Assembly: GCA_019973575.1 (NCBI GenBank)
Contig: BPUI01000002.1
Location: 1,054,001 to 1,118,000 of the forward strand
Direction: 5' to 3'
Length of the DNA stretch: 64,000 bases
Origin: Gemmatimonadetes bacterium T265
Lineage (GTDB): Bacteria > Gemmatimonadota > Gemmatimonadetes > Gemmatimonadales > Gemmatimonadaceae
In this document: piece after piece, positions 51 through 63,850 of the stretch
Position numbering within the stretch: position 1 is the stretch's first letter
Layout: the number at the start of each line of letters is the position of its first letter
Made by a program: the position numbers and the translations under genes
Notes under the pieces: model-generated
The model's database searches: none
Seen by the model: only the letters and a program-made list of their open reading frames with translations
What the model was told of the DNA's origin: nothing

Positions 51-1148
51 GTGGTACCGCTCGTCACCCCGGAGACGCTCGAAGGCTCGACGCTTACCCG
101 CTCGCCGCAACCGACGACCGGGCTACCGCTGGTCTCGGTGCTCATCACCGCGCACAACCGACCCGACGAGCTCCGGGCGACCCTTCGCGCTTTGAAGTCG
201 CAGGATTACGCCCCGCTCGAACTACTGATCATCGACGATGCATCCGCCGTCGAGCTCGGGGCGGTGGTGCGCGACGAGTGGCCGGCCGCGCGGTTCTGGC
301 GCAATCCGCGCAACCTCGGTCTGATCGCGAGCCGGACGCTGGGGATGGGTCGGGCGTCCGGCAGGTACGTGCTGACCCTGGACGACGACTCGCATCCCGT
401 CGACGCGGCCGCGATCTCGCGCGCCGTCGCCCGGTTCGAACGCGAGCCGCAGTTAGGCGTGATCGCGTTTCGCGTCCACGAAGGCGTCGAGCCGCCGCGG
501 GCCGAGCCGGGGGCGCCGGAGCCGTACTACACGCACTCGTTCCTCGGTTGCGGCGAGATGATGCGGACGGCGGTGGCGCGCGAGCTCGGCGCGTACCGCG
601 ACTTCTTCGTCTACTACGCCGAGGAGTCAGAATTCTCGCTGCGAGCGATCGGGCGCGGGTGGCGCATCCTCCACGATCCCGGGCTCGTCGTGCTGCACCG
701 TGCGTCTCCGATCGGGCGCTCGAACGCGAAGATCGTCGCGTACAGCTTCCGCAACATGGCATGGACGACGCTGCTGGACCTGCCGTTCCCCCGGGCGCTG
801 GTCGATCTCGCGTGGAAGCTCGCGACCGGCGGCGTCGAGGTGGTGCGGCAGGGCGACGCACGATGGATGGTTTGGGCGCTGTGGTCCTTTCTGCGGGGAC
901 TGCCACGGGTCGCGCGCGAGCGGACGCCGATCTCGCGCGAGGCCCTGCGCGTGTACGACGCGCTCCGGTTCCGGCGCGTGCTCACGCCCGAGGCGCTGGA
1001 ATCGCCCGCGGCGATCACCTGGCGCGAGCGGTGGACGTGGTTCAACGGCGCATTCCGTAACCGTCGGCGCGCGCCCGCGGCGTGGGACCGGCGCGGCCGT
1101 CCGATCGGCGACGGTGCCTGGACGACGCCGGGCTCGGCGGGGCCGTGA
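51..1148 (+). CDS. Family 2 glycosyltransferase
   Basis: Predicted cytoplasmic or membrane-associated inverting glycosyltransferase (365 aa) that adds a sugar during polysaccharide repeat-unit assembly. The GT-A fold signature is clear: a strand followed by TAHNRPDEL near residue 35, the nucleotide-binding stretch LLIIDDAS near 58, and a metal-binding DxD motif in LTLDDDSHP near 110. Later FVYYAEESEF resembles the acceptor-site ED/EE motif of the family. The GTG start at 51 follows TGAGG at 42-46. The next gene starts inside the stop codon (GTGA), so the two are probably translationally coupled. Donor and acceptor cannot be predicted. Confidence 0.85.
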   Translation: MVPLVTPETLEGSTLTRSPQPTTGLPLVSVLITAHNRPDELRATLRALKSQDYAPLELLIIDDASAVELGAVVRDEWPAARFWRNPRNLGLIASRTLGMGRASGRYVLTLDDDSHPVDAAAISRAVARFEREPQLGVIAFRVHEGVEPPRAEPGAPEPYYTHSFLGCGEMMRTAVARELGAYRDFFVYYAEESEFSLRAIGRGWRILHDPGLVVLHRASPIGRSNAKIVAYSFRNMAWTTLLDLPFPRALVDLAWKLATGGVEVVRQGDARWMVWALWSFLRGLPRVARERTPISREALRVYDALRFRRVLTPEALESPAAITWRERWTWFNGAFRNRRRAPAAWDRRGRPIGDGAWTTPGSAGP

Positions 1149-2365
1149 CGCCCTCGAGTCGGCCGCGGTCGTTCGTGACGGTGTTCAACGGCGCGCGGGA
1201 CGGGTATCAAGTCCCGCTCGCGCTGGCCGAGGCAGGGCGGCTCGAAGCACTCGTGACGGACTGGTACTCGCCGCTGGACCGACGCGGGTTCGCGCGCGCG
1301 CTGGCGTTCGCGCCGGAGCGCGTACGATCCGCGCTCGCGCGACGTCGTCACGCGGACCTGCCGTCGCGACTCGTCCGCACGATGCCGTGGCAGGCCGTGC
1401 GTCAGCGCGTGCGGCCGGACACGCTCTCCGACGTCGACGCGCGACTCGGCGGCGCCGCGGGCGAACTCGCGCGCGCGCGCGGCGCCGGGCTGCTCGCGTA
1501 CAGCTACTACGCGCATGCGGCGTTCGCGGCGCTCGGGACTGCGGCGGGCGCGCGGGTGCTGTTCCAAGTGCAGGCGCACCCGGCGGCGCTCCGCCGGGTG
1601 TTCGTCGACGAGGCGAGTCCCGACGATTACGACGCCGGCTCGGGCGCGGACGGCGCGCCGCGACCGCTCGCGGAATGGCCGCGTCGCGTGGGACTCGCGG
1701 ACGAGCCGTTCATGGCCGACCGGTGTGTCGCGCCGTCGACCTACGTGCGCACGACGCTCGTCGACGCGGGCGTGGCACCGGACCGCGTGTCGGTGGTGCC
1801 GTACGGCGTCGATCTGGACACGTTCAATCCGTCGGCGCCGTCGACCGTGCGGCGGCCGTTCCGGGTCGTCTACGCCGGCCAGCTGTTACGACGCAAAGGG
1901 TTACAATATCTGCTCGCCGCGTGGAAGCGTCTCGCGCTGCCGAACGCCGAGCTGCTGCTCGTCGGGCGCGGGGCGTCGGACGGGCCGCTGCTGCGCGCCT
2001 ACGCCGGCCTCTACCGCGTCGTGCGCGACGTACACGCGCGCGCCGCGATGGCGCGGATCTACGCCGAGAGCGACGTCTGTTGTCTGCCGTCGCTCTCGGA
2101 CGCGTTCGGCCACGTGCTGCTTGAGGCACTCGCGTGCGGGACGCCGGTGATCGGGACCGTCAACACGGCGGCGCCTGACCTCGTCACGCCGGGCGAGAAC
2201 GGTTTCGTGGTGCCCATCCGCGACGTCGACGCGCTCCTCAGGACGCTGACCTGGTGCTACGAGAACCCGGACGCCTTGGCCCACATGCGTGCCGCGGCGC
2301 GGCGGCGGGCCGAGCAGTGTTCGTGGGGCGCCTTTCGACGCGCGCTGGTCGCCTGTGTGGATTGA
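1145..2365 (+). CDS. Family 4 glycosyltransferase
   Basis: Predicted retaining GT-B glycosyltransferase (406 aa). The C-terminal GT4 donor-binding half is easily seen: RVVYAGQLLRRKG near residue 240, then a loop with LLLVGRG, and SDVCCLPSLSDAFGHVLLE near 320, which carries the conserved E-x7-E type region followed by ALACGTPVIGT. The GTG at 1145 is chosen because it overlaps the preceding stop as GTGA and gives a normal-length N-terminal half; an in-frame upstream GTG at 1082 would only extend the protein into the previous gene. Two TTA codons occur close together around 1887-1905, which is rare here. Probably extends the lipid-linked repeat unit. Confidence 0.85.
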   Translation: MTPSSRPRSFVTVFNGARDGYQVPLALAEAGRLEALVTDWYSPLDRRGFARALAFAPERVRSALARRRHADLPSRLVRTMPWQAVRQRVRPDTLSDVDARLGGAAGELARARGAGLLAYSYYAHAAFAALGTAAGARVLFQVQAHPAALRRVFVDEASPDDYDAGSGADGAPRPLAEWPRRVGLADEPFMADRCVAPSTYVRTTLVDAGVAPDRVSVVPYGVDLDTFNPSAPSTVRRPFRVVYAGQLLRRKGLQYLLAAWKRLALPNAELLLVGRGASDGPLLRAYAGLYRVVRDVHARAAMARIYAESDVCCLPSLSDAFGHVLLEALACGTPVIGTVNTAAPDLVTPGENGFVVPIRDVDALLRTLTWCYENPDALAHMRAAARRRAEQCSWGAFRRALVACVD

Positions 2366-2478
2366 TTTGGGAAGCACGCCATACGACCGGTCCTGCAACG
2401 ACCGGCGGGGGTCGACGGATCACGGCGTCGAGCTGCGTTCCGGTCCGCGGGCGGGCCGACCGCGTCCGGCCTCCGGGT

Positions 2479-2484
2479 TATCAT
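2479..2484 (+). promoter_or_regulatory. Minus-10-like TATCAT, candidate leaderless promoter for the Wzy-like gene
   Basis: TATCAT fits TANNNT and ends 7 nt before the ATG at 2492, so transcription would begin at or next to the start codon. The same layout occurs upstream of several other genes in this window. No good -35 box is visible 16-18 bp upstream, and no Shine-Dalgarno sequence lies in the 7-nt gap. The 126-bp gap 2366-2491 is otherwise featureless. Confidence 0.45.
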
Positions 2485-2491
2485 TCGCCGC

Positions 2492-3973
2492 ATGGACCTC
2501 GTGACCGACCCGCGTCGCGAATCGGCACTCGGCATCGACCGCGGACGTCGGCCGGTGCGCGCGACGGTCGGCCTACTCGTCGGCGCAGCCGGCGTGGCGG
2601 TCGCGTACGCGATGTCGGCGTTCATGGGCGCGGCGGTCGTGCTCTGCGTGCTCGTCGGTGTGCTCATCATCACGCCGCTCGCGCTGCGGTTGTGGACGGA
2701 CACGTTCGATCTGTTCGAACCCGTGACCATCATCTCGATCGTCTACTTCGTCTATTTCGTCGTCGGTCCGCTCGCTCGCATTGCGACGGACGATCTCTCG
2801 TTCATCGGGCGCAGCTCCGAGGCGGACTTCGTGCCCGTGCTCGTGGCGATCGCCGTCGCGGTGAGCGCGATGTGGCTCGGCTACGCCCTCCCGATCGGCC
2901 CGCGCCCGGCCCTTCGCGACACGCCGTTGTCGTCAGAAACGGTGGACAGCGTACGGTACGGGCGGCGGATGGCGGGGCTCCTGGTGGTGATGGCGGGGTT
3001 AGGAATCATTGTGTGGGCGCGCCTCGCTGGCCGGTCGTTGCGCTACTTTCTGCTCCCGGGCGTGTCCCAGGCGGCCGACGCCGGCCAAGGCGGGACGGAC
3101 ATCCCGTACTTTTTTTTCGCGGTCGAATGGTTCATCCCGGCCGTTGCGGTACTCATCGCGACGGACGGGCTGCGTGGACGATTTGCCCGCACGGCGCTGA
3201 TCGCCTTCGTGACGGTCATGTACGTATCGATCGGGTTCCGCTACCGGATCGCGGTCCTGTGGTTCGCCGCGGGGATCGTGGCGTACCTCCGGGTCGGACG
3301 CCGCCCGCGAGTCCTGCACCTGGTCGTCCCGTGCTCGCTGGCATTCCTGGGCGCGGGGTGGCTCGCGGCCGCCCGCGAGTTCTTCCGCAGCGGTGGGGCT
3401 GCCGGCAGTCTCGGGTTCGACTTGCGGTCGGCCCTGCTCGCCGGGCTGTCGGACACGCGCATCTTCGAGACGTTCGGGGCGGTGCTCGCGACGGTCCCGC
3501 GGTTCCTGCCGTACGCGGGCATCACGCCGTTCGCGTATCCGTTCCTGTTGTGGATCCCGCGGTTCGTCTGGCCCGGCAAGCCGGTCCCGTTCTGGCTCGG
3601 CTACGTCGGGCAGAGCATCGGAACGCCCGAGACGTTCGGTGCCGGCGCCGCCGTCCCGCAATTCGGCGAGTTCTACATCGCGTTCGGCTGGCCGGGTATT
3701 ATGATCGGCATGTTTATTTTCGGCGCGGCGGCGAAATGGCTTTGGCGCTGGTACCGGGCCTCGCCGGACGACCCGTGGCGTCAGGCGATCTTCGCGCTGA
3801 ACGCGTCGCTGCTCTTCCTCGCGATCATCCGCGGGTACTTCGCGCAGATCGCCCAGGAGTGGTGCTTCGTCGTGCTGCCCGCGGTCGTGATCGCCGCGCT
3901 CGCGCGGCGGCGCGCCCGACGCGCGGCCGGGCGCGCGGTCGGTCGGTCCGCGGAGGTGGTCGCGGATGCGTAG
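2492..3973 (+). CDS. Wzy-like oligosaccharide repeat-unit polymerase
   Basis: Integral membrane protein of 493 aa with about a dozen hydrophobic segments, beginning with the pair at residues 25-70 and ending with NASLLFLAIIRGYFAQ near 440. The overall plan and the segment PQFGEFYIAFGWPGI near 390, after a long loop with RFVWPGKP, match O-antigen polymerases of the Wzy/WzyE-like type that join lipid-linked repeats on the outer face of the inner membrane. It sits among glycosyltransferases, which supports this. The basic C-terminus (RRRARRAAG) should be cytoplasmic. Codons around residue 206 form a run of eight T. The stop overlaps the next start by 8 bp. A ligase role is the main alternative. 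Confidence 0.75.
   Translation: MDLVTDPRRESALGIDRGRRPVRATVGLLVGAAGVAVAYAMSAFMGAAVVLCVLVGVLIITPLALRLWTDTFDLFEPVTIISIVYFVYFVVGPLARIATDDLSFIGRSSEADFVPVLVAIAVAVSAMWLGYALPIGPRPALRDTPLSSETVDSVRYGRRMAGLLVVMAGLGIIVWARLAGRSLRYFLLPGVSQAADAGQGGTDIPYFFFAVEWFIPAVAVLIATDGLRGRFARTALIAFVTVMYVSIGFRYRIAVLWFAAGIVAYLRVGRRPRVLHLVVPCSLAFLGAGWLAAAREFFRSGGAAGSLGFDLRSALLAGLSDTRIFETFGAVLATVPRFLPYAGITPFAYPFLLWIPRFVWPGKPVPFWLGYVGQSIGTPETFGAGAAVPQFGEFYIAFGWPGIMIGMFIFGAAAKWLWRWYRASPDDPWRQAIFALNASLLFLAIIRGYFAQIAQEWCFVVLPAVVIAALARRRARRAAGRAVGRSAEVVADA
3110..3117 (+). repeat. T8 homopolymer inside the Wzy-like gene
   Basis: Eight consecutive T residues encode Phe-Phe-Phe with TTT TTT TTC. Phe is otherwise mostly TTC here, so the run is unusual for the composition. 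Loss or gain of one T would truncate the polymerase at about residue 206. Confidence 0.8.
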
Positions 3974-5129
3974 GATCCTCGTCGTCAGCAACATCCCGAC
4001 GCCGAACAACGACGCGCTCTTCGCGCAGCTCACGCGGCAGCCGGGCGTCGACCTCCGCGTCGTGTACGGGGCCGCGCGGGAAGCGAACCGCGCCTGGCGC
4101 CTCGTCGACGAGAAGGCGTACGCCTACGACGTGCTGCCGGGCTGGACGCTTGCCGGTTCGGCGCACGTGAACCCGCGGGTCCTCCGCGCGTTGCGGTCGT
4201 TCCGCCCCGACGTCGCCGTGCTGAGCGGGTCGTACACGATGCCGACCGTGCAACTCGCCGCGGCCGCGCTCCACGCGCGCGGCACGCCGTGGCTGTTCTG
4301 GGGCGAGGAGCTGGCCTACAACGACGCGCCGGCGACGGTCCGATCGGGACGCGCGCTGTTGCGCCGCGTGCTCCGCCGCGCACGCGGCGTGTTGGCGATC
4401 GGATCGCGCGCGTGCGCGTCGTACGTGCGGGCGGGGGTCGCGACCGAGCGCGTGACCGACTTCCGCTACTACGCCGACACGGACCGCTTCGCCCTTCCGG
4501 ACCCGGCCCGGCTCGAAGCGCGCGCTGCGGTGCGCGCGTCGTTGGGGATCGCGGACGCGGCGTTCGCCGTGTTGTACTGCGGGCAGCTCATCGTTCGCAA
4601 GGGTGTCGACACCCTGCTCCGCGCCGTGCACCGGCTCCCCTCGCCCGACGGGCGCCCGCCGGCGTCGGTCCTGCTCGCCGGCGACGGGCCGGAACGCCCC
4701 GCACTCGAAGCGTTGGCGGAGGAACTCGGCATCCGCGATCGCGTCCACTTCATGGGCTTCCACCAGCCCGACGCGCTGCCGCGTGTCTTCGCGGCGGCGG
4801 ACACGTTCGTGTTGCCGTCGCACGCCGAGGGCTGGGGGGTCGTCGTGCCGGAGGCGATGGCGGCGGGACTCCCGGTATTCGCGTCGGACCGGGTGAACGC
4901 GGCGGCGGACCTCGTGCGCGACGGCGAGAACGGCGGACGCTTCGTCGCGGGCGACGACGCCCGGCTGGCCGACTGGCTGCGCGCGGTGTTGTGCGATCCG
5001 TCGCGGCGTGAGACGATGGCGAACGCGGCGCGGGCCGCGGTCCGGTGCGAGACGCCGGCCTACGCCGCGCGGCGGATGGTCTCGCTACTCGACGCCGCGA
5101 CGGCGCGCCGCCCGCTGCGCGGGCTGTAG
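3966..5129 (+). CDS. Family 4 glycosyltransferase
   Basis: Predicted GT-B retaining glycosyltransferase of 387 aa. The N-terminal half opens with ILVVSNIPTPNNDALF, a typical acceptor-domain nucleotide-fold start. The C-terminal half has LYCGQLIVRKGVDTLL near residue 200, VLLAGDGPERPALE near 235, HFMGFHQPDALP near 262 and DTFVLPSHAEGWGVVVPEA near 280, the standard GT4 donor-binding series including the E-x7-E-like acidic pair. Translation starts at an ATG inside the last codons of the polymerase gene, an 8-bp overlap that implies co-expression. Substrate unknown. Confidence 0.87.
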   Translation: MRRILVVSNIPTPNNDALFAQLTRQPGVDLRVVYGAAREANRAWRLVDEKAYAYDVLPGWTLAGSAHVNPRVLRALRSFRPDVAVLSGSYTMPTVQLAAAALHARGTPWLFWGEELAYNDAPATVRSGRALLRRVLRRARGVLAIGSRACASYVRAGVATERVTDFRYYADTDRFALPDPARLEARAAVRASLGIADAAFAVLYCGQLIVRKGVDTLLRAVHRLPSPDGRPPASVLLAGDGPERPALEALAEELGIRDRVHFMGFHQPDALPRVFAAADTFVLPSHAEGWGVVVPEAMAAGLPVFASDRVNAAADLVRDGENGGRFVAGDDARLADWLRAVLCDPSRRETMANAARAAVRCETPAYAARRMVSLLDAATARRPLRGL

Positions 5130-5315
5130 CCGAACCGCCGGGTCCGGCCGTAAGGCGGCGCGTGCCCGGCCGCCGCGCGGAGCGGCCCTGCTGCTCTTAT
5201 GCCACGCGACGTCAGCTGCTAGCTTCGCAGCGTCGCACGCGGGCGCTCCGGCCCGCCGGTGCGCGCGCGCGGTGTGCCGACGTCACAACCCGCGGGCAGC
5301 CTGCGGAGGGTGTCG

Positions 5316-6662
5316 GTGTCGTACGTACGCCAGCCTGTCGAGGTGACCGAGACGCGCCCCCCCCGCGCGCCGTTCGTCGCGCGCGAGCTCCCGCGCGGCA
5401 CGCGGGTCTGCTTCGTGGCCGACGGGCGGAGCCCGATCGCGCGCAACTGGATCGCCGACGTCGTCGCCCGCGGCCACGACGTCCACCTCGTGTCGACGTT
5501 CCCGTGCGACGCCGCGGAACTCGGCGTCGCGAGCGTCACCGTCGTGCCGGCCGCGTTAGGCCGGCTCGCGGGTGGCGGGGCGAGCCGGCCGACGGCGGCC
5601 GCGACGGCGCCGCCGTCGCGGGGCGCGGCGGCGGTGGTGCGGCGCGCGCGCGCGCGCGCGACGGGCGCGCTGCTCCCGACGATGCTGGGCTGGGTCGCGC
5701 CGTTCGACCTCGCGTCGCACGCGCGGCGGCTCCGCACCGTGATCGACGCGATCGACCCGGCGCTCGTCCACGCGATGCGCGTCCCGTACGAGGGCATCCT
5801 CGCCGCGCTCGCGCTGGAGGGCACCGGGCGCCCCCTCGTCGTCTCGATATGGGGGAACGACCTCGAGCTCTGGGCGGCGCGCTATCCGTTCGTCGCACGC
5901 CTGACGCGGCGCGCGCTCCGCCGCGCGACGGCGCTCCACCCGGACTGCGCGCGCGACCTCCGGCTCGCCGAGTCGTGGGGGTGGGACACCGCGCGTCCGG
6001 CGGCCGTGATCCCCGGCAACGGCGGGATCCGCACCGACCTGTTCCACCCCGGACCGGCGGACCCCGCGGTGCTCGCGCGGTATGAACTTCCGGCCGACGC
6101 GCCGATCGTCCTCAACGCGCGCGGCTTCCGCGGGTACGTCCGCAACGACACGTTCTTCCGCGCGATCCCGGCCGTCCTCGAGCGGCGCCCCGACGCCGTG
6201 TTCGCGGGCGTCGGGATGGCCGGGCATCCGACCGCCCTGCGCTGGACGCGCACGTTAGGCATCGGGCACGCCGTGCGGCTGCTGCCGCCCGTGCGGCCGG
6301 CCGAGATGGCAGCGCTCTTCCGCGCGGCGGCGGTCGCGGTCTCGCCGGCCGAGTACGACGGCACGCCGAACACGCTGCTCGAGGCGATGGCGTGCGGCGC
6401 GCTGCCGGTCGCGGGCGACATCGCGTCGGTGCGGGAGTGGGTCGACGACGGGCGGAACGGGTTCCTGTTCGACCCCGCCGACCCGCGCGCGCTCGCCGAC
6501 GCGCTCGTGCGCGCGCTCGACGACGCACCCCTGCGTGCGGCGGCGGCGGCGCGCAATCGCGCGCTCGTGGAGGAGCGCGCGGAGTTCACGCGCGGGATGC
6601 GACGCGCCGACGCGCTCTACGCGGCCGCACTCGCCGCGGCCGCCCGCGGCGCGGCCGCCTAA
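5316..6662 (+). CDS. Family 4 glycosyltransferase
   Basis: GT-B glycosyltransferase of about 448 aa. The GT4 signature is seen in PVRPAEMAALFRAAAVAVSP near residue 330 and YDGTPNTLLEAMACGALPV just after; the first half contains LVVSIWGNDLELWA near 178. The start is placed at GTG 5316 because GGAGGG at 5305-5310 lies 5 nt upstream; an in-frame GTG at 5259 has no such site. A run of eight C covers codons 14-17 and an alternating GC tract (5642-5658) encodes an Ala-Arg stretch near residue 110. The TAA stop lies in a GTTAGGC motif (reverse orientation). The 186-bp gap upstream shows nothing but the ribosome-binding site. Confidence 0.83.
   Translation: MSYVRQPVEVTETRPPRAPFVARELPRGTRVCFVADGRSPIARNWIADVVARGHDVHLVSTFPCDAAELGVASVTVVPAALGRLAGGGASRPTAAATAPPSRGAAAVVRRARARATGALLPTMLGWVAPFDLASHARRLRTVIDAIDPALVHAMRVPYEGILAALALEGTGRPLVVSIWGNDLELWAARYPFVARLTRRALRRATALHPDCARDLRLAESWGWDTARPAAVIPGNGGIRTDLFHPGPADPAVLARYELPADAPIVLNARGFRGYVRNDTFFRAIPAVLERRPDAVFAGVGMAGHPTALRWTRTLGIGHAVRLLPPVRPAEMAALFRAAAVAVSPAEYDGTPNTLLEAMACGALPVAGDIASVREWVDDGRNGFLFDPADPRALADALVRALDDAPLRAAAAARNRALVEERAEFTRGMRRADALYAAALAAAARGAAA
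5357..5364 (+). repeat. C8 homopolymer near the 5' end of a glycosyltransferase gene
   Basis: Eight consecutive C residues fall in codons 14-17 of the gene that starts at 5316. A one-base slip would shift the frame before any catalytic residue is made. This is the position where slipped-strand phase-variable tracts usually sit. Confidence 0.75.
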
Positions 6663-6693
6663 CACGCCCCGACGCCCGACGGAGCCCCCGAGC

Positions 6694-8715
6694 ATGTGCG
6701 GACTCGCCGGATTCGCCGGCGCCTTCGACGCCCGACTCCTCGGCGCGATGAACGCGTGCGTCGCGCACCGCGGCCCCGACGGGGGGGGCGACCTCGTGCT
6801 ACGCTCCGACGCGGGGCGCGGGCGCGTCGGACTGGCGCACCGGCGGCTCTCGATCATCGACCTCTCCGCCGACGGCGCGCAGCCGATGGGGGTCGACTGC
6901 GCCCGCTGCGGCGTGCGCCACGACACGCCGGCCGACGACGCGCTCTGGCTCGCCTACAACGGAGAGCTCTACAACTTCCCGGCACTCCGCGCGGAGCTCG
7001 AGGCCGCGGGGCACCGGTTCCGGAGCCGCACCGATTCGGAGGTGCTGCTGCACCTCTATGCGGAAGCCGGGCCGGCGATGCTGGAGCGGCTGAACGGGAT
7101 CTTCGCCCTCGCCCTCTACGACGGACGGCCGACCGGGCGGCCGGAGGACGTGGCGCGTGGCGACGTCCTACTCGCGCGCGACGGGCTCGGCACGAAGCCG
7201 CTCTACTACGCGGCCGTCGCCGACGGCGTGTTGTTCGGGTCGGAGCTCAAGTCGCTCCTCCAGAGCCCCGCGGTGTCGCGCGACGTCGACGCGGCCGCGA
7301 TCCACTATCACCTCGCGTACCTGTGGTCGCCCGCGCCGCATACGGTGCTCCGCGCGGTCCGCAAGCTGCGGCCCGGGTACGCGCTCGCGGTGCGCGACGG
7401 CGTAGTCGCGCGCGAGTGGTGCCACTACGACCTTCCGTACGGGCGCGCGCCGCTCGCCGGGACGGAAGCGGAGATCGCCGCGCAACTTGCGACGGAGGTC
7501 GAGGCGGCCGTCAGCCGGCAGATGGTCGCCGACGTGCCGGTCGGCGCGTTCCTCTCCGGCGGGCTCGATTCGAGTGCGGTCGTCGCGATGATGCGGCGCG
7601 CGCGGCCCGACTACCGGCCGCGCTGCTACACCATCGGCTTCGCCGACGACGCCGACGTCGAGGGAAACCCGGCCGACTTGCCCTACGCGCGGCGTGTGGC
7701 CGAGCACCTCGACGTGGACCTGCGCGTGCTCGAGATCGCGCCCGACGCGATCCGGCACCTCGGCCGGATGCTCTACCACCTCGACGAACCGCAGGCCGAC
7801 CCCGCGCCGATCAACGCGCTCCTGATCGCGGAGGCGGCGCGCGAGGACGGGACGAAGGTCCTGCTCTCGGGCGCGGGCGGCGACGACCTGCTGAGCGGCT
7901 ACCGCCGGCACCGCGCGTTAGGCGCCGAGCGCGCGTGGGGGTGGCTGCCGCGTGCCGTGCGTCGCGGCGTCGCGGCCGGGGCGCGCGGCGTGAGCGAGGG
8001 GCGGGGCGGGGTCGGGCTGATGGATCGGCCGCTCGCGCGCCGCGTCGCGAAGATGTTTGCCCACGCGGACCTGCCGCCCGACGCGCGGCTCGCGAGCTAC
8101 TTCTGGTGGAGCGGCGAGGCCGTCCGGCGGTCGCTCTACACGCCGGCGTTCGCGGAGGCGACGCGCGAGGTGGACACGGCCGGGCCGCTCCTCGCCTCGC
8201 TCGCGCGCATCCCGGGCGAGCGGAACGCGCTCAACCGCATGCTGTACCTCGAAGGCAAGCACTTCCTCGCCGACCACAACCTGAACTACACCGACAAGAC
8301 CGGCATGGCCGCGGGCGTCGAGGTGCGCGTCCCGCTGCTCGACCGCGAGCTGGTCGACTTCGCGACGCGCATCCCCGCGCACATGAAGCAGCGCGGCGCC
8401 GTCGGGAAGGCCATCTTCAAACGCGCGATGGAGCCGTACCTGCCGCACGACGTCATCTACCGCCCGAAGAGCGGGTTCGGCGCGCCGCTCCGCCGCTGGC
8501 TGCACGGCGAGCTGCGCGACCAGGTGCAGGACGCGCTCAGCCCCGCGGCGCTCGCCCGCCGCGGGTGGTTCGAGCCCGCCGCGGTGGCGCGCCTGATCGA
8601 CGCCGACCGGCGGGGCGCGGTCGACGGCGCGTACACGATCTTCGCGCTCGTCTGCCTGGAGCTGTGGTGCCGCATGTTCATCGACGCGCCGGTGCCGGCG
8701 ATGGGGCGGGCGTGA
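6694..8715 (+). CDS. Asparagine synthase-like glutamine amidotransferase
   Basis: Class II glutamine amidotransferase of the AsnB type, 673 aa. The start at ATG 6694 puts the catalytic Cys at position 2 (MCGLAGFAG), and GGAG lies about 9 nt upstream. RGPDGGG near residue 27 and YNGELYN near 90 belong to the glutaminase domain. The synthetase domain has the PP-loop SGGLDSS near 288 and later SGAGGDDLLSGYRR near 390, so ATP-dependent amide formation looks intact. An unusual insertion with Cys-Ala-Arg-Cys precedes YNGELYN. Such enzymes in polysaccharide loci are thought to amidate sugar acids or other intermediates; here that is inference. It overlaps the next gene as GTGA. Confidence 0.88.
   Translation: MCGLAGFAGAFDARLLGAMNACVAHRGPDGGGDLVLRSDAGRGRVGLAHRRLSIIDLSADGAQPMGVDCARCGVRHDTPADDALWLAYNGELYNFPALRAELEAAGHRFRSRTDSEVLLHLYAEAGPAMLERLNGIFALALYDGRPTGRPEDVARGDVLLARDGLGTKPLYYAAVADGVLFGSELKSLLQSPAVSRDVDAAAIHYHLAYLWSPAPHTVLRAVRKLRPGYALAVRDGVVAREWCHYDLPYGRAPLAGTEAEIAAQLATEVEAAVSRQMVADVPVGAFLSGGLDSSAVVAMMRRARPDYRPRCYTIGFADDADVEGNPADLPYARRVAEHLDVDLRVLEIAPDAIRHLGRMLYHLDEPQADPAPINALLIAEAAREDGTKVLLSGAGGDDLLSGYRRHRALGAERAWGWLPRAVRRGVAAGARGVSEGRGGVGLMDRPLARRVAKMFAHADLPPDARLASYFWWSGEAVRRSLYTPAFAEATREVDTAGPLLASLARIPGERNALNRMLYLEGKHFLADHNLNYTDKTGMAAGVEVRVPLLDRELVDFATRIPAHMKQRGAVGKAIFKRAMEPYLPHDVIYRPKSGFGAPLRRWLHGELRDQVQDALSPAALARRGWFEPAAVARLIDADRRGAVDGAYTIFALVCLELWCRMFIDAPVPAMGRA
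6781..6788 (+). repeat. G8 homopolymer in the asparagine synthase-like gene
   Basis: Eight consecutive G residues encode Gly-Gly-Gly in the RGPDGGG motif, codons 30-32. A slip would inactivate the enzyme early. Gly codons GGG GGG are a costly choice unless tolerated or selected. Confidence 0.7.
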
Positions 8716-14018: not shown

Positions 14019-14641
14019 AGCGCGCGATCGACGTCGTCGGCGCGGCGGTCGGCCTCGTCGTCCTCTCGCCGGTCTTGTTAGGCGTCGCGCTCGTCCTCGC
14101 GCGGCGCATGGGCCGACCCGTGCTCTTCCGGCAGACGCGGCCGGGGCTGCACGGGCGCGCGTTTACGATGTACAAGTTCCGCACGATGCGCGACGCCGTG
14201 GGCCGCGACGGCCGCCCGCTCGCCGACGCGGAGCGCCTCACGCCGCTCGGCCGCCTGCTGCGCAGCACGAGCCTCGACGAGCTGCCGGAGCTCTTCAACG
14301 TCCTGCGCGGCGAGATGAGCCTCGTCGGGCCGCGGCCGCTGCTCATGGAATACCTGCCGCTCTACACGCCCGAGCAGGCCCGGCGGCACGACGTCCGCCC
14401 GGGGATGACGGGCTGGGCCCAGGTGAACGGCCGCAACGCGATCGGCTGGGACGAGAAGTTCGCACGCGACGTGTGGTACGTGGACCACCAGTCGCTCGCG
14501 CTCGACGTGCGCATCCTCCTCCTAACGCTCGCGCGCGTCCTCGCCCGCGAGGGCGTCAGCGCGGCGGGCGAGGCGACGGCGCGGCCGTTCACGGGGTCGG
14601 TCACGACCGGATCCGCGCCGCGGGGCGCGTCGGGCGCGTGA
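14012..14641 (+). CDS. PglC-like monotopic phosphoglycosyl transferase
   Basis: 209-aa bacterial sugar transferase that would start repeat-unit assembly by moving a phospho-sugar onto undecaprenyl phosphate at the inner membrane. It has the family order: KRAIDVVGA at the very start, a hydrophobic re-entrant helix (residues 12-30), FTMYKFRTMRDA near 52, the catalytic Asp-Glu in STSLDELPELFNVLRGE near 90, [13 protein letters not shown], and VRPGMTGWAQVNGRN near 130. Length matches the minimal PglC type rather than the long WbaP type. GTG 14012 overlaps the previous gene by 7 bp. The PglD-like gene follows at once, which suggests a bacillosamine-type sugar as substrate. Confidence 0.87.
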   Translation: MLKRAIDVVGAAVGLVVLSPVLLGVALVLARRMGRPVLFRQTRPGLHGRAFTMYKFRTMRDAVGRDGRPLADAERLTPLGRLLRSTSLDELPELFNVLRGEMSLVGPRPLLMEYLPLYTPEQARRHDVRPGMTGWAQVNGRNAIGWDEKFARDVWYVDHQSLALDVRILLLTLARVLAREGVSAAGEATARPFTGSVTTGSAPRGASGA

Positions 14642-15300: not shown

Positions 15301-15325
15301 CGCCTAACGGCGCGGGCCGCGGCCG

Positions 15326-44218: not shown

Positions 44219-44223
44219 CGCCC

Positions 44224-45469: not shown

Positions 45470-45473
45470 TCGC

Positions 45474-46610: not shown

Positions 46611-46613
46611 GAT
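46584..46613 (+). promoter_or_regulatory. Promoter of hrcA (TTGACA-N18-TAGGAT)
   Basis: A consensus -35 TTGACA (46584-46589) and TAGGAT (46608-46613) are 18 bp apart inside the 3' end of hemW; the -10 contains the hemW stop codon. Transcription would start within a few bases of ATG 46624, leaving almost no leader. No CIRCE inverted repeat is seen here. Confidence 0.7.
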
Positions 46614-46623
46614 TGAACTTACC

Positions 46624-47682: not shown

Positions 47683-47691
47683 CCGTTAGGC

Positions 47692-55438: not shown

Positions 55439-57478
55439 ATGATCACCCCCGAGAGCATCGAGCGCGTGCGCGAGGCGGCCGACATCGTCGAGATCGTCGG
55501 CGAGCACGTGAAGCTGAAGCGGAGCGGCTCCAGCTTCCGCGGCCCCTGCCCGTTCCACCACGGCACCGGGCCCAACTTCTCCGTCATCCCGCGGACCAAC
55601 GCGTACTACTGCTTCGTCTGCCACGCCAAGGGCGACGTGATCGGCTTCGTGCGCGACCACCTCGGCATGGACTTCGTCGACGCCGTGAAGTACGTCGCCG
55701 ACCGCGCCGGGGTCGAGGTGCAGGAAACGCGCAACCCGCGCGCGGCCGAGGAGCGCGACGCGCGCGAGCCGCTCTGGGAGGCGACCGCGGCGGCGGCCGA
55801 GCTCTTCCGCGCGACGCTCTGGGAGGACGCGGAGGCGCAGAGCGCGCGCGACTACCTCGCCTCGCGCGGCGTCGGCCGCGAGGAGGCGGACCGCTTCGGG
55901 CTGGGGTACGCGTGGCGCGACGGGGCGCGCTGGGCCGAGCGGCTGCGCGCGTTAGGCCACGACGACGCGCGGCTCGTCGACGTCGGGCTGCTCCGCCGGC
56001 GCGACGACCGCGGGGACGAGACGTTCCCGTACTTCCGCGGGCGCCTGATGATCCCGATCCAGGACGCGGGCGGGCGGACGGTCGGCTTCGGCGGGCGGGT
56101 GATCGGTCAGGGCGAGCCGAAGTACCTCAACTCGCCCCAGGGCATGCTCTTCGACAAGGGGCGGCAGCTCTACGGGCTCTCGTGGGCCAAGCACCCGATC
56201 CGCAAGGCGGAGCGCGCGCTCGTCGTCGAGGGCTACTTCGACGCGATCCGGCTCGCGCTCGCCGGCGTCGAGGAGGCGGTCGCGCCGTTAGGCACGGCGA
56301 TGACCGAGGCGCAGGCGGCGCTCGTTGCGAAGCTCACGCGGAACGTCTTCCTCGTCTACGACAGCGACGCCGCGGGCCTCAAGGCGACCGTCCGCGCCGG
56401 GCACGAGCTGCTCCGGCTCGGCGTCGCGCCGCGCGTCGTCTCGCTCCCCGGCGGCGAGGACCCCGACACGTTCGTGCGGACGCACGGGCGAGACGCGATG
56501 GAGGCCGCGCTCGCGCAGGGGCTCGACCTGCTCGACTGGCAGCTCCTGCTCCTGCAGCGCCGCGCGTACTTCGCGGACCTACACCGGACGCGGCAGGCGA
56601 TCGACAAGCTCCTGCCGACGGTGCGCGCGGCGAGCGACCCGGTGACGCGCGACCTCTACATCGCGAAGCTGGCCGAAGTCACGCGCCTCGACCGCGACGT
56701 CCTGCAGCGCGAGGTCGACGCGCCGCCGCAGCGCGCGTCCGGCGCTGCTCCCGCGCCGGGCGCGCGGCCGTCGCCGACCAATGGCGGCGCGCCCGCGGCG
56801 CCCGTGGATCCGACGCGCGGGCCGCCGCGCGCCGTGTGCGAGGTGAGCGCCGACGGGGTCGAGTACGTGACCGCGCCCCCCGCGCGCGAGGACCGGCCCG
56901 GCTTTCGCCCTTTCGTCCCGCGGAGCCAGCGCGGGCGGCGTGCCGAAGAGTGGGTGAGCGTCAAGGCCGTGCCGCGCGTGCCACTCGACGCCAACGTGCG
57001 ACGCGCGGAGCGGTACCTGATCCGCGCGATGGTGCAGGATCGGGCGCTCGTCGAGACCGTCGCCGAACGCTGGCAGCCCGAGGCCTTTTTCGAGGACGCG
57101 TTTCGCGAGCTGTTCGGCCGGTTGCTCGCCGATCCCTACAAGCCGCTCGACGACGCGACCGAGGGATTCCCCGAGCACGCGATGCGCGCGATCGACGAGG
57201 CGGTGAGCGAGCACGACCCGACGCCCGATCTCACCGTCGCGAGCTGGTTGCAGAAGCTCCAGGTCTGGGCACTCGACGCCGAGAAGACACAGATCCTCCG
57301 CCGCTTCGCCGCAACGGACGCGCCGCTGCGCGACGACGAAAAGGACGCGCTCACCGAGCGGATGCGCGCGTTGCAGGCCGAGCGCGCCGCGCTCTCGCCT
57401 ACGTTCGCCCGCGTCGCCGGTTTCCTGAGGAACGTCGCAGACGAACGACCCGCGGGTAACGGCCCCGGCCCGGCGTAG
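55439..57478 (+). CDS. dnaG: DNA primase DnaG
   Basis: 679-aa primase. The zinc-binding domain is CPFHHGTGPNFSVIPRTNAY followed by CFVCHAKGD (C-x2-H and C-x2-C ligands, residues 38-65). The catalytic core has a Toprim domain with ALVVEGYFDAIRLALAGVEE near 262 and VFLVYDSDAAGLKATVRAG near 305, plus RLMIPIQDAGGRTVGFGGRV near 200. A disordered Pro/Ala linker (about 425-460) precedes the helicase-binding C-terminal domain. It starts at ATG 55439, 16 bp after mutS2. Confidence 0.95.
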   Translation: MITPESIERVREAADIVEIVGEHVKLKRSGSSFRGPCPFHHGTGPNFSVIPRTNAYYCFVCHAKGDVIGFVRDHLGMDFVDAVKYVADRAGVEVQETRNPRAAEERDAREPLWEATAAAAELFRATLWEDAEAQSARDYLASRGVGREEADRFGLGYAWRDGARWAERLRALGHDDARLVDVGLLRRRDDRGDETFPYFRGRLMIPIQDAGGRTVGFGGRVIGQGEPKYLNSPQGMLFDKGRQLYGLSWAKHPIRKAERALVVEGYFDAIRLALAGVEEAVAPLGTAMTEAQAALVAKLTRNVFLVYDSDAAGLKATVRAGHELLRLGVAPRVVSLPGGEDPDTFVRTHGRDAMEAALAQGLDLLDWQLLLLQRRAYFADLHRTRQAIDKLLPTVRAASDPVTRDLYIAKLAEVTRLDRDVLQREVDAPPQRASGAAPAPGARPSPTNGGAPAAPVDPTRGPPRAVCEVSADGVEYVTAPPAREDRPGFRPFVPRSQRGRRAEEWVSVKAVPRVPLDANVRRAERYLIRAMVQDRALVETVAERWQPEAFFEDAFRELFGRLLADPYKPLDDATEGFPEHAMRAIDEAVSEHDPTPDLTVASWLQKLQVWALDAEKTQILRRFAATDAPLRDDEKDALTERMRALQAERAALSPTFARVAGFLRNVADERPAGNGPGPA

Positions 57479-57540: not shown

Positions 57541-59322
57541 GTGCCCGCCTCCGCCGCCCCCCGCCCGGCCGTCCGCCCCCGGCCGCGGCCGCGCTGGACC
57601 GTCGCCCCGGCGCCCGACGCGGCGCTCGTCGCCTCGCTCGCCGCGGGGCTCCAGCTCCCCGAGACCGTCTGCCAGTTGCTCGCCGTGCGCGGGCACCGCG
57701 CGGTCGACACGGCCAAGCTTTACCTCCGGCCCCGTCTCGACCAGCTGCACGCGCCCGACCGCCTCGACGGCGTCGCCAGCGCCGCCGAGCGGCTTGCGAC
57801 CGCGGTGCGCCGCGGGGAAACGGTGCTCGTGCACGGCGACTACGACGTCGACGGCATGTGCTCGACGGCGATCATGGTGCGCGTGCTGCGCGCGGTCGGC
57901 GGCAGGGTCGTCCCGTTCATCCCGGACCGGCTGACCGACGGCTACGATCTGACCGACGCGGGCGTGCGCGCGGCGCAGGCGGCCGGTGCGGTGGTGGTGC
58001 TCACCTGCGATTGCGGAACGAGCGCGCACGGGCCGGTCGCGGCGCTCTGCGCCGCCGGCATCGACGTGATCGTCAGCGACCACCACCTTCCCGGGCACGG
58101 GCGCGACGTGCCCGCCTGCCACGCGGTGCTCAACCCCAACGCGCCGGGTACCAACTACCCCGACTCGGACCGCGGGCTGTGTGCCGCCGGCGTCGCGTTC
58201 AAGCTCGCGCTCGCCGTCGTCCATGCGTTAGGCGTGAACGACGCGCTCGTCTGGCGCCAGCTCGACCTCGTCGCGCTCGCGACGATCGCCGACGTCGCGC
58301 CGCTGCGCGGCGAGAACCGCGTGCTCGCGCGCTACGGGCTGAAGCTGATGGCCGAGTCGCCGAACGTCGGACTGCGCGCGCTGGTGCGCGCGGCCGGCCT
58401 CGACGCGAAGCCGCTCACGGCCGGCCGCGTCGGCTTCATCCTCGCCCCGCGTCTGAACGCCGTCGGCCGGCTCGGCTCGGCGCTGCGCGGTGTCGAGCTG
58501 CTGACGACCGACGACCCGCACGCGGCGAACGCGATCGCGCGTGAGCTCGAGGAGCTGAACCGCCGGCGCCAGGATCTCGACCGCGCGACGCTCGACGCCG
58601 CGCGGCGGCACGTCGACCGGCTCGACCTGGACGCGACGTACGGGCTCGTGATCGCCGGGGAGGGCTGGCACCCGGGGGTGATCGGGATCGTCGCGTCGCG
58701 CGTCGTCGAGGAGACGGGCCGTCCCGCGGTACTCGTCGCGGTCGAGAACGGGGTCGGGAAGGGGAGCGGGCGCTCGATCCCGGCCTTCGACCTGCACGAC
58801 GCACTCGCGGCGTGCGACGCGCGCGGGCTGTTCCGCCGCTTCGGCGGGCACAAGGCCGCCGCGGGCGTGACCCTCGACGCGGTGCAGGTGCCCGCGTTCG
58901 CCGAGGCGTTCGCGGCGGTGGCGCGCGAGCGCCTCACGACGGACCAACTCGTACCCGAGCTGCGCGTCGACCTCGAGGTACCGATAGACGCCGTGACCGA
59001 CGCGCTCGAGGCGACGCTGCGGCACCTCGAGCCGCACGGGATCGGGAACGCCGCCCCCGTGCTCGCCGTGCGCGGCGCGCGCCTCGCCGCACCGCCGCGG
59101 CCGGTCGGCGGCGACGGCGTGCGCCTCGCGTTCCGCACGCCCGACGGCGGCGAGATCGGCGCGATCGGGTGGGGGATGATCGACCGCGCCGACGGGCTCG
59201 ACGTGCACACGCCCGTGGACGTCGCGTTCCGCCTGGAGCGCGACGACTACCGCGGTGCGGACCGGCTACAGCTGCGGCTCGCCGACGTCGCGCCGGCGCG
59301 CGCCGCGGCCTACGCCGGCTGA
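57541..59322 (+). CDS. recJ: Single-stranded-DNA exonuclease RecJ
   Basis: 593-aa 5'-3' exonuclease used in recombination and repair. The DHH domain shows VLVHGDYDVDGMCSTAIM near residue 96 (motif I), VVLTCDCGTSAHGPV near 150 and VIVSDHHLPGHG near 178 (the DHH motif). LNAVGRLGSALRGVELL near 305 precedes the DHHA1 domain, with GEGWHPGVIGIVASR near 372 and FRRFGGHKAAAGVTL near 430. An OB-fold follows at the C-terminus. GTG 57541 is preferred over TTG 57532 because of the upstream TAGATT box. Confidence 0.94.
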   Translation: MPASAAPRPAVRPRPRPRWTVAPAPDAALVASLAAGLQLPETVCQLLAVRGHRAVDTAKLYLRPRLDQLHAPDRLDGVASAAERLATAVRRGETVLVHGDYDVDGMCSTAIMVRVLRAVGGRVVPFIPDRLTDGYDLTDAGVRAAQAAGAVVVLTCDCGTSAHGPVAALCAAGIDVIVSDHHLPGHGRDVPACHAVLNPNAPGTNYPDSDRGLCAAGVAFKLALAVVHALGVNDALVWRQLDLVALATIADVAPLRGENRVLARYGLKLMAESPNVGLRALVRAAGLDAKPLTAGRVGFILAPRLNAVGRLGSALRGVELLTTDDPHAANAIARELEELNRRRQDLDRATLDAARRHVDRLDLDATYGLVIAGEGWHPGVIGIVASRVVEETGRPAVLVAVENGVGKGSGRSIPAFDLHDALAACDARGLFRRFGGHKAAAGVTLDAVQVPAFAEAFAAVARERLTTDQLVPELRVDLEVPIDAVTDALEATLRHLEPHGIGNAAPVLAVRGARLAAPPRPVGGDGVRLAFRTPDGGEIGAIGWGMIDRADGLDVHTPVDVAFRLERDDYRGADRLQLRLADVAPARAAAYAG

Positions 59323-59333: not shown

Positions 59334-59900
59334 GTGCGGATCGTCGCGGGGCGGTGGCGCGGACGCCCGATCGATGCGCCGCGCGACGCGCGCGTGCGCC
59401 CGACGTCGGACAAGGTGCGGGAGGCGTGGCTCAGCATCGTCGCGGCGGACGTCGCGGGCGCGGCGGCCGTCGACCTGTTCGCCGGCTCGGGCGCGTTAGG
59501 CATCGAGGCGCTCTCGCGCGGCGCGGCCTCCTGCGACTTCGTCGAGCTGAACGCGGCGTCGCTCCGCGCGCTCGGCGCGAACCTCGAGCGCGTCGCCGCC
59601 GGCGGCGCGGCCCGCGTGCGGCGCGGCGACGCGTTGCGGTTCGTCGAGGCGCTCCCGGCGTACGCCTACGACCTCGCGTTCGCCGACCCGCCGTACACGA
59701 CCGACGCCGCGGTGCGCGTGGCCGAGCGGTGGCTCGCGGTCCCGTTCGCGCGCGTCCTCGGCGTCGAGCACGACGCGCGAGTCGCCTTGCCTGGGGGTGG
59801 TGATTCCCGCAAGTACGGGACGACGCGCGTCACGTTTTACCGGGCCGACGACCCGGCGTGGGCGCCAGCGCCGGAAGCCGCGGCGGCCGCGGCCCCGTGA
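59334..59900 (+). CDS. rsmD: 16S rRNA (guanine966-N2)-methyltransferase
   Basis: 188 aa. RIVAGRWRGRPIDAP at the start and RPTSDKVREAWLSIV near residue 22 are typical of RsmD. Motif I is AVDLFAGSGALGIEALSRGA near 44, and the catalytic motif is FADPPYTTDAA near 120 (DPPY). It methylates G966 of 16S rRNA. The last 20 residues are Ala/Pro-rich. It overlaps coaD as GTGA, the pairing seen in many genomes. Confidence 0.92.
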   Translation: MRIVAGRWRGRPIDAPRDARVRPTSDKVREAWLSIVAADVAGAAAVDLFAGSGALGIEALSRGAASCDFVELNAASLRALGANLERVAAGGAARVRRGDALRFVEALPAYAYDLAFADPPYTTDAAVRVAERWLAVPFARVLGVEHDARVALPGGGDSRKYGTTRVTFYRADDPAWAPAPEAAAAAAP

Positions 59901-60409
59901 CGGAACGCCGGCCGCCGCGCACGGCCGTGTTCGCCGGCAGCTTCGACCCGGTCACGCGCGGCCATGTCGACCTCGTCCGCCGCGCGGCCGCGCTCTTCGA
60001 CCACGTCGTCGTCGCGGTGGCCGTGAATTCGGGGAAGCAGCCGCTCTTTTCGCTCGAGGAGCGCGCCGAGCTCGTGCGCGGCGCGCTGGCGGCCGAAGGC
60101 ATCGCGGCGGACGTTGCGGGACTCGACGGGTTGCTCGTCGCGTTCGCGCGCGGCGTCGGCGCGACGTTCCTCGTGCGGGGCGTCCGAAGCGTCGCGGACT
60201 TCGAGTACGAGCAGCAGATGGCGCGCATGAACCGGCACATTGCGCCGGCGATCGACACCGTCTTCCTCGCCCCCGCCCCCGAGCTCGCGTGGGTGAGCTC
60301 GACGCTGGTGCGCGAGGTCGCGCGGCTCGGCGAGCGCGTCGACGCGCTCGTCACGCCTAACGTGGCGGACGCGCTGCGCGCGAAGTTCGGCGGGCCGGAC
60401 CCCGCGTGA
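59897..60409 (+). CDS. coaD: Phosphopantetheine adenylyltransferase
   Basis: 170 aa. It adds AMP to 4'-phosphopantetheine in coenzyme A synthesis. Diagnostic motifs are VFAGSFDPVTRGHVDLVRRA near residue 10 (T/H-x-G-H nucleotidyl transfer site), FLVRGVRSVADFEYEQQM near 92, and LAWVSSTLVREVARLG near 128 (the ISSTxVRE site). GTG 59897 overlaps the rsmD stop as GTGA; an in-frame start at 59,858 would only lengthen into rsmD. It overlaps pta as GTGA. Confidence 0.95.
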   Translation: MTERRPPRTAVFAGSFDPVTRGHVDLVRRAAALFDHVVVAVAVNSGKQPLFSLEERAELVRGALAAEGIAADVAGLDGLLVAFARGVGATFLVRGVRSVADFEYEQQMARMNRHIAPAIDTVFLAPAPELAWVSSTLVREVARLGERVDALVTPNVADALRAKFGGPDPA

Positions 60410-62249: not shown

Positions 62250-63850
62250 ACGGCGGCCGCGCGACCGGACGCGCGGCGAGTGAGCTCGGTGCCGTGTTGC
62301 GCGCGTTCCGCGCGGCCGTGGGGTGCCGCGCGGCGCTCTGGGCCGCGCCGTCGTCCGGCGCGCCCGCACGCCTGCTCGCGCACGACGGCGACCCGGCCGG
62401 CCTCCGCTGGCCCGACCCGCACGGGCCGCCGACGGGCGCGCGACTCGCGACCGTCCCGGGGCTCCCGTCCACGTGGCTCACCGTCGGGCCGTGCGCGGAC
62501 GGGTCGGCGCCGTCGCAGGCGCAGCTCGACCTGCTCGCGCCGCTCGTCGCGCGTCAGCTGCAGACGGCGGGCGAGGTCGAGCAGGCCGCGCTCGAACTGT
62601 CCGAGCGCTACGAGGAGATCAACCTCCTCTACACGATCACCGAGATCCTCGGCCGCGCGGTGACCCTCGAGGAGACCGCCCGCGTCATCCTCACCGAGGT
62701 CTCCGAAACGGTCGGCGCGCGGCGCGGCGCGATCTACCTGTACGAGCCCGGCGCGGGCGTTCTCCGAGCGACCGCGACGTTAGGCGTCCCGGCGGCGGGC
62801 GTGCCGCCCGTCGCCGTGGACGCGGCCGACAGCACCGCGGCCCGCGTGTTCCGTACGCTGCACCCGACGATCGACGAGCGCGACGGCCCGGGCGCGGACG
62901 GCACGTCGCCGGACGGGGCGCTCCGCGACGGCGCGCTGCTCTGCGTCCCGATCGTCTGGAGCGGGCCGTCGGGCGGGGAGCCGCTCGGCGTCGTCGCGCT
63001 CTCGGGCCGCCGCGCCGGGCAGCAGTTCACGGCCGGGGACCTCAAGCTCGTCACGGCGATCGCGTCGCAAATCGCCGCCGCGATCCAGAACGCCCGGCTG
63101 GTCCGCGCCTCGATCCAGCAGCAGCGCCTCACGCAGGAGATGGCCCTCGCACACGACCTGCAGATGTCGCTGCTGCCGCGCGTCGACGTCGTCGCGCCCG
63201 CGGCCCGCGTCGCCGCGCGCGTGGTGCCGGCGGACAGCGTCGGCGGCGACTTCTACCAGCTGGTCCGCCTCCCCGGCGCGCGCACGGGCGTGATGGTCGG
63301 CGACGTGTCGAGCCACGGCTACCGCGCCGCGCTCATCATGGCGCTCACGATGAGCGCCGCGGCGATCCACGCGCAGCAGTCGGGCGACCCCGGCGAGACG
63401 CTCGGCGCGGTGCTCGGCTCGTTAGGCGACGAGCTGGCGACCACGGAGATGTTCATTTCGACGGTCTACGCGGTCGTCGACCCGCGCGCCGGCACCCTGC
63501 TCTACGCGAACGCGGGCCACCCGCACGCGTTCGTCCTCCGCGCCGACGGCAGCGCCGAGCGGCTGCCCGCGGGCGCGCCCCCGCTCGGACTCGTGCCCGC
63601 CACGCCCGCCTGCGCACGCACGACCTGGCACGCGGGCGAGGACCTGCTCGTCGTCTTCACCGACGGGATCAGCGAAGCCGTCGACGCGAACGGGCGGATG
63701 CTCGGCGAAGAGCCCGTCCTCGCGGCGGCGCGCGCAGTGCGCGACCGCGACCCCGACGCGGTGGTCGCGGCGGTGTTCGACGCGCTCGCCGCGCACACCG
63801 GCGGGGCCGCCCCGCGCGACGACCTCACCCTCGTCGTCGCGCGGAGCTAA
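62246..63850 (+). CDS. GAF-domain PP2C-type phosphatase (RsbU/SpoIIE-like)
   Basis: 534 aa. A poorly conserved N-terminal sensor-like part (1-115) and a short helix lead to a GAF domain (about 128-285, with [20 protein letters not shown] at its start). A coiled linker with [20 protein letters not shown] near 290 is followed by the PP2C/SpoIIE domain (about 310-534): [28 protein letters not shown] near 350, [14 protein letters not shown] and [14 protein letters not shown] near 470, and [10 protein letters not shown] at the end. The metal-binding Asp residues (GGD, GDV, TDG, RDD) are present. It should dephosphorylate the STAS protein in response to an unknown signal. Confidence 0.9.

Follow-up and report, generated by a model that had tools for sequence, protein, structure and literature searches.

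Why should one heptamer, GTTAGGC, recur throughout a stretch of bacterial DNA that is far too rich in G+C to favour it by chance? The stretch in question, referred to here as the window, comprises 64,000 nucleotides of Gemmatimonadetes bacterium T265 (C2:1054001-1118000 of genome G000, which consists of 6 contigs and 5.63 Mb; G-numbers are genome labels and L-numbers sampled stretches). A first-pass annotation, made from the letters of the window alone, had listed 33 copies on both strands between 452 and 63427, and each of these was found where it had been reported, 27 on the plus strand and 6 on the minus strand, with the first starting at 452 and the last ending at 63,427.

Abundance of GTTAGGC in the window and in the genome

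Among all heptamers of the window, GTTAGGC was the most over-represented (z ~24 under a second-order Markov model), and 100 dinucleotide shuffles of the window returned a mean of 2.15 copies with a maximum of 8. The over-representation claimed in the first-pass annotation was thereby upheld, although its chance estimate of five to six copies proved too generous. The complete T265 genome was shown to contain 3304 copies (1612 + 1692 on the two strands), compared with 253 copies of a control heptamer with the letters reversed. A 1.44-Mb sample of this genome, consisting of 69 stretches of 20 kb (L001-L069) and the window, held 802 copies against 28 expected from a word-masked background. Density across the genome equals that in the window; absence of the word from the rest of the genome, which had been named as grounds for abandoning the proposal, was thus not what was found. 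A text search for GTTAGGC in an open-access library returned primers and unrelated sequence only, and no description of an over-represented or uptake word in Gemmatimonadota was found in the open-access literature searched.

Selection on the DNA word

Genes were called with a simple GC-periodicity finder tuned to T265, for which reason the coding/non-coding split is unreliable for lower-GC relatives. Of the 802 copies of the T265 sample, 424 were in the sense reading NNG TTA GGC and 14 in the sense reading GTT AGG C. The two antisense readings that are open contributed 90 and 36 copies, a further 90 spanned gene ends, and 148 were intergenic. When the coding sequence of this sample was shuffled synonymously within genes, a procedure that keeps each protein and the codon counts of each gene (the inflated number of TTA codons included), 26.7 copies were expected compared with 554 observed (21-fold), and each of the four stop-free readings was enriched 10- to 70-fold. 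The corresponding shuffle for the relative Gemmatirosa kalamazoonensis (G016) gave 195 observed copies against 8.6, again with all four stop-free readings enriched. Non-coding DNA held 148 copies in T265 and 78 in Gemmatirosa, compared with expectations of 9.6 and 1.7, respectively. Furthermore, the word frequently supplies stop codons, as 55 of the 148 TAA stops (GCC TAA C) and 36 of the 220 TAG stops (GT TAG GC) in the T265 sample lie within it. Enrichment in every legal frame, on both strands, at stop codons and in intergenic DNA points to the DNA word, not the protein, as the target of selection, a conclusion that the first-pass annotation had drawn and that the synonymous shuffle and the genome-wide presence of the word support.

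The accompanying claim that GTTAGGC captures almost all TTA codons was right in tendency rather than to the letter, the fractions being 24 of 32 in the window, 425 of 549 in the 1.44-Mb sample and 121 of 126 in the sampled genes of Gemmatirosa. Most TTA codons follow a G and precede GGC, which would agree with a codon-pair or translation effect, such as a special tRNA for the TTA-Gly pair. However, the G before TTA is itself needed: the codon preceding TTAGGC ends in G in 416 of 421 cases, and that preceding CCTAAC in 89 of 92 (T265 sample), which shows that the seven bases are what matters. Enrichment also extends to copies that are antisense, intergenic or on stop codons, and the non-coding and antisense enrichment refutes a codon-pair effect, to which we assign a negligible probability.

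Motif shape, spacing and gene composition

The consensus was shown to extend to nine bases, YGTTAGGCV, and to be non-palindromic, the preceding base being C at a frequency of 0.73 and T at 0.20, and the following base being T at only 0.03. These flanks were alike in intergenic and coding copies, with no conservation farther out. The core was identical in all genomes that carry the word, while flank preferences and enriched near-matches varied by lineage, with the low-copy carrier genera represented by small samples of 40-100 kb each. Near-matches in excess were GTTGGGC and GTTAGAC in T265, Gemmatirosa and G021, GTTAGTC in T265, and CGTTAGGT, CGTTATGC or CGTCAGGC among G020, G011, G005 and G033.

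Spacing of the copies in the T265 sample was near random (mean 1.65 kb, coefficient of variation 1.05). Density amounted to 0.71 per kb in genes above 78% GC and fell to none in genes below 66% GC, a trend opposite to that predicted from the low GC content of GTTAGGC itself; the depletion in low-GC genes would fit untagged, recently acquired DNA. The poorest 20-kb stretch sampled, L040 (G000:C1:2170001-2190000), held 2 copies together with a tyrosine-recombinase-like gene, and is consistent with a recently acquired island.

Placement and orientation of the copies in the window

Of the 33 copies of the window, 24 are in-frame (NNG)TTA GGC and 3 lie antisense within genes; stop codons account for 4 and intergenic DNA for 2. 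They are listed here with the transformation gene dprA (window coordinates, strand, description; each entry is a GTTAGGC copy unless a gene is named as such).

452-458, +, in-frame (NNG)TTA GGC, sense
5555-5561, +, in-frame TTA GGC
6254-6260, +, in-frame TTA GGC
6657-6663, -, at the end of gene 5310-6662(+), GCC TAA C, TAA stop
7917-7923, +, in-frame TTA GGC
9305-9311, +, in-frame TTA GGC
9958-9964, +, gives the TAG stop of gene 8712-9962(+), where this gene overlaps gene 9949-11847
11127-11133, -, antisense in gene 9949-11847(+)
12119-12125, +, in-frame TTA GGC
12809-12815, +, in-frame TTA GGC
14077-14083, +, in-frame TTA GGC
14973-14979, +, in-frame TTA GGC
15302-15308, -, intergenic
17714-17720, -, in-frame TTA GGC of gene 16703-17857(-)
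19951-19957, +, gives the TAG stop of gene 18066-19955(+)
20486-20492, +, in-frame TTA GGC
22523-22529, +, gives the TAA stop of gene 22524-23573(-)
26643-26649, +, in-frame TTA GGC
27911-27917, +, in-frame TTA GGC
31253-31259, +, antisense in gene 30428-31609(-)
33804-33810, -, in-frame TTA GGC of gene 33462-34862(-)
36681-36687, +, in-frame TTA GGC
36753-36759, +, in-frame TTA GGC
44224-45396, +, gene dprA (DNA processing protein A; PF02481, DprA_WH)
47685-47691, +, intergenic, in the hrcA-dnaJ gap
48546-48552, +, in-frame TTA GGC of dnaJ
54288-54294, +, in-frame TTA GGC of a MutS2-type gene
55951-55957, +, in-frame TTA GGC of dnaG
56287-56293, +, in-frame TTA GGC of dnaG
58227-58233, +, in-frame TTA GGC of recJ
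59495-59501, +, in-frame TTA GGC
60355-60361, -, antisense in gene 59927-60409(+)
62779-62785, +, in-frame TTA GGC
63421-63427, +, in-frame TTA GGC

The strand ratio of 27:6 in the window is a consequence of gene direction, not of replication strand. Word strand was shown to track gene strand (rho 0.56, p 5e-7) and to bear no relation to GC skew (rho -0.10, p 0.40), while intergenic copies were strand-neutral (120:117; 22:27 in strand-biased loci; 19:19 in Gemmatirosa). The polar segregation motif that had been proposed among four possible roles is disfavoured, as intergenic copies display no orientation preference, and a word of the KOPS type (FtsK-orienting polar sequences) was rejected as the main explanation for lack of polarity, with gene direction and GC skew taken as proxies for replication polarity. 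A paper on strand bias in Gemmatimonadota (PMC11237797) describes a conserved region in which genes are strongly co-oriented, and the window may lie within it.

Positions 36760-47684 represent 11 kb without GTTAGGC, encompassing two tRNA genes, Mla-type transport genes, obgE, dprA, a hemW-like gene and hrcA. With near-random spacing of ~1.9 kb in the window, a gap of this length is of doubtful significance.

Distribution among genera and replicons

Carriers of the word were identified in 11 of the 35 genera of Gemmatimonadaceae (26 genomes, 270-5785 copies per genome), while genomes of the remaining genera held 3-169 copies; the word is up to ~100-fold denser in rich carriers than in close word-free relatives. 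Gemmatirosa kalamazoonensis, a cultured carrier, holds 5148 copies. The trait was uniform within genera with a single exception, G137 of genus g22, which has 9 copies compared with 2664-5785 in the other five members, so that either the word was lost recently or this genome is misplaced. Among 297 sampled genomes of the phylum, others with a few hundred copies were confined to the same order, mainly to genus g47 (203-960), with a few others at 268-436.

On a DnaG tree, and hence on the evidence of one protein, the trait requires at least four changes, and starred support was obtained for each of the three pairings of a non-carrier with a sister carrier (G015 with T265, G014 with G020, G031 with G021). 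The comparison with related genomes suggested in the first-pass annotation thus shows that GTTAGGC is a genus-level trait, patchy among sister genera, some of which do not carry it. No replacement word of like strength was found in the sampled stretches of the word-free genomes G015, G022, G013, G019 and G023. The best Obg relatives of T265 belong to uncultured Gemmatimonadetes (73-75% identity), in line with its membership of Gemmatimonadota. Obg relatives from named metagenome assemblies contained no GTTAGGC, and viral contigs with close word pairs yielded background-like matches only. No dnaG word site was common to different genera, a comparison in which reverse-strand loci were mishandled and which therefore has the value of an anecdote.

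Within Gemmatirosa, the two megaplasmids carry 0.62-0.84 copies per kb, like the chromosome. On its 21-kb contig (G016:C1:1112-20930), word positions recur at an offset of 14,997 bases, indicating that this contig probably represents a 15-kb circular element with an overlap in the assembly; it contains ~14 words per 15-kb unit and is thus denser in the word than the chromosome. The 21-kb element was termed phage-like by the authors of the Gemmatirosa genome (PMC3974934).

GTTAGGC as a candidate DNA uptake sequence

Short over-represented words are commonly classed as Chi sites, uptake words or highly iterated palindrome (HIP) words (PMC4390886). As Chi and KOPS are disfavoured by the lack of polarity, Chi also by the undetected nuclease domain and HIP by its palindromy and the methylome (see below), an uptake word is the remaining known kind, and it was judged the best fit among the four roles proposed in the first-pass annotation. 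By analogy with established systems, we therefore prefer, with modest confidence, to view YGTTAGGCV as a genome-wide self-DNA recognition word, most likely a DNA uptake sequence (DUS). We infer a receptor that recognizes the word, control of uptake by the word, and biased uptake as the cause of its accumulation. Free double-stranded DNA would be recognized through the word by a competence receptor on the cell surface, for which a type IV minor pilin is the probable candidate; import of the bound DNA would be favoured through the pilus secretin and ComEC, and DprA and RecA would recombine the imported DNA into the genome. Over evolutionary time, such biased uptake would enrich all replicons in the word at any site where the proteins permit it, that is, at Leu-Gly (TTA GGC), at Pro-Asn (CCT AAC), at stops (GCC TAA C or GT TAG GC) and in intergenic DNA. 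The dprA gene that the first-pass annotation had placed at 44,224 was confirmed (PF02481, E 1.1e-69).

GTTAGGC resembles the DUS of Neisseriaceae in being a short non-palindromic word present in thousands of copies, in both coding and intergenic DNA, with one preferred frame, with apparent variants in related genera and with some genera lacking it, in genomes that possess competence genes and type IV pilins. For those Neisseriaceae dialects with stated counts, PMC3630211 gives 2245-5918 copies per genome; it also mentions Neisseriaceae genomes without any DUS, and describes an inverted-pair terminator arrangement as common in DUS genomes of this family. With 3304 copies in 5.63 Mb, and 270-5785 across carriers, GTTAGGC falls within the uptake-sequence range of Neisseriaceae. 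It also shares with known uptake words one dominant orientation in the reading frame (PMC2346458). Strand neutrality, the graded excess of near-matches and the depletion in low-GC genes agree with an uptake word as well. Conversely, the eight Neisseriaceae dialects are read by the minor pilin ComP, whereas no ComP orthologue was assigned for GTTAGGC, which further differs in its phylum, in its unrelated sequence, in the lack of inverted-pair terminators and in its density on megaplasmids and a phage-like element. The uptake signal sequence (USS) of Pasteurellaceae is comparable to YGTTAGGCV in its core of ~9 bp, its similar density and its occurrence on both strands, but the two have no sequence similarity, and conservation around GTTAGGC ends one flanking base out on either side.

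In favour of an uptake function, ComEC was detected in 55 of 59 relatives, including every carrier among them, and T265 yielded 12 prepilin matches. Several other observations weigh against it. ComEC and pilins also occur in non-carrier relatives, so that the machinery does not predict the word, a pattern expected if only receptor specificity differs. Matches to ComP_DUS (PF16732) were weak in carriers and non-carriers alike, and the one genome exceeding the cut-off is a non-carrier. The open-access literature searched yielded neither a report nor an assay of natural transformation for Gemmatimonas. Inverted pairs were not in excess in the T265 sample, where 152 tail-to-tail neighbours included a single pair within 30 bp of one another, and, given the phage-like 21-kb contig, carriage of the word is not confined to core DNA.

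Alternative explanations

An architecture or maintenance word, bound on all replicons by a nucleoid, SMC or repair protein in a non-polar manner and kept by selection, would account for the uniform density on the chromosome, both megaplasmids and the 21-kb element, as well as for the lack of polarity and the near-random spacing. Such a housekeeping binding word should, however, not be missing from sister genera, and its depletion in low-GC genes would be unexpected; known architecture words are usually polar, as is the case for KOPS, or confined to chromosome regions. We regard this role as possible but unlikely. Chi sites, which modulate helicase-nucleases of the RecBCD/AddAB/AdnAB type, are likewise short, non-palindromic and over-represented, and GTTAGGC is found in core genes too. 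Nevertheless, PF12705 (PDDEXK_1, the RecB/AddAB/AdnAB nuclease domain) was undetected in five carriers (T265, G020, G021, G029 and G033), in a search that matched 12 of 14 control genomes and that a highly divergent enzyme could escape, and some word-free relatives have strong matches to this domain. Escherichia coli Chi exhibits a leading-strand bias, whereas intergenic GTTAGGC copies are oriented with neither GC skew nor gene direction, and the approximately hundred-fold contrast between rich carriers and word-free relatives is also unlike Chi. The recombination hotspot suggested in the first-pass annotation is disfavoured by the five carriers without a match, and we consider it distinctly improbable. 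It appears very improbable that GTTAGGC is a target of methylation or of restriction-modification, or that an orphan methyltransferase maintains it in the manner of HIP1. HIP1 (GCGATCGC) of cyanobacteria is, like GTTAGGC, a genome-wide short word that is clade-specific with exceptions and of unproven function, and in cyanobacteria HIP words are found together with methyltransferases that match them (PMC4390886). HIP words are palindromic, though, and GTTAGGC is not; moreover, the published single-molecule real-time (SMRT) methylome of Gemmatirosa lists RGATCY, ATGCAC and CCAGN7TCA only (PMC3974934). These are N6-methyladenine motifs, which disfavours the proposed methylation target for adenine, 5-methylcytosine being outside their scope.

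The core consensus of integron attC sites is GTTRRRY (RYYYAAC on the complement), and GTTAGGC fits it exactly, which for a random heptamer and its complement has a chance of ~16 in 8192 (~1 in 500). The word could in that case reflect cassettes or integrase activity, and integron integrases are indeed common in Gemmatimonadaceae; T265 encodes IntI above the TIGR02249 cut-off at C3:115000-115947, C1:366680-367612 and C3:192486-193382, and attC-like pairs ~80-130 bp apart occur in some word-poor relatives. However, IntI is present in carriers and non-carriers alike (among the genomes with IntI are G015, G022, G094, G013, G019 and G023), most copies are synonymous codons inside genes, and attC-like pairs are no commoner than others, as 6 of the 152 tail-to-tail neighbours and 4 of the 155 head-to-head ones lay within 150 bp. 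GTTAGGC thus matches the attC core perfectly but, unlike attC, occurs as dispersed single copies without paired hairpin sites. Integron cassettes as the source of most copies are refuted by these unpaired, dispersed copies and by IntI in non-carriers, and the probability of an integron effect is judged to be very slight. An improbable link between the two is that the identity is no coincidence: recognition in these integron-rich bacteria would be keyed to GTTAGGC, free gene cassettes of whatever bacterial origin, bearing this core at their termini, would be accepted as self, and the word would be spread by biased uptake.

Integron-like arrays and other repeats

Gemmatirosa is reported to have one of the largest integrons among those located on plasmid-classed replicons (PMC9024848). 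In f2-family relatives (G050, G052, G035 and G348), inverted word pairs ~80-130 bp apart were observed every few hundred bases, resembling integron cassette arrays. T265 also harbours a second repeat family, TGTCATCCTGAG, for which TGTCATCCTG was found in 35 copies compared with 0.5 expected in the 1.44-Mb sample; this family looks like a dispersed element resembling repetitive extragenic palindromic (REP) sequences and unrelated to GTTAGGC. GAGTTGA/TCTCAACT repeats were observed in the carrier G005 (L220-L222, G005:C48) and in a related metagenome-assembled genome (L072), and a comparable GTGGGAGA repeat in L071.

Implications for Gemmatimonadota

According to a 2025 paper, Neisseriaceae and Pasteurellaceae are the only families known to sort self from foreign DNA by means of an enriched uptake word (PMC12616744). 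Were GTTAGGC not an uptake word, it would represent, in bacteria available in culture, a genomic signal under strong selection whose function has yet to be found. If it is one, it would constitute a third and unrelated case, in an abundant and hardly cultured soil phylum, which would imply that self-tagging evolved repeatedly and would predict frequent recombination within the group. The availability of Gemmatirosa kalamazoonensis as a cultured carrier makes the uptake reading directly testable, and GTTAGGC added to donor DNA (with CGTTAGGCG as the form named for marker DNA) would then provide a practical key for genetics in harmless soil bacteria that lack such tools.

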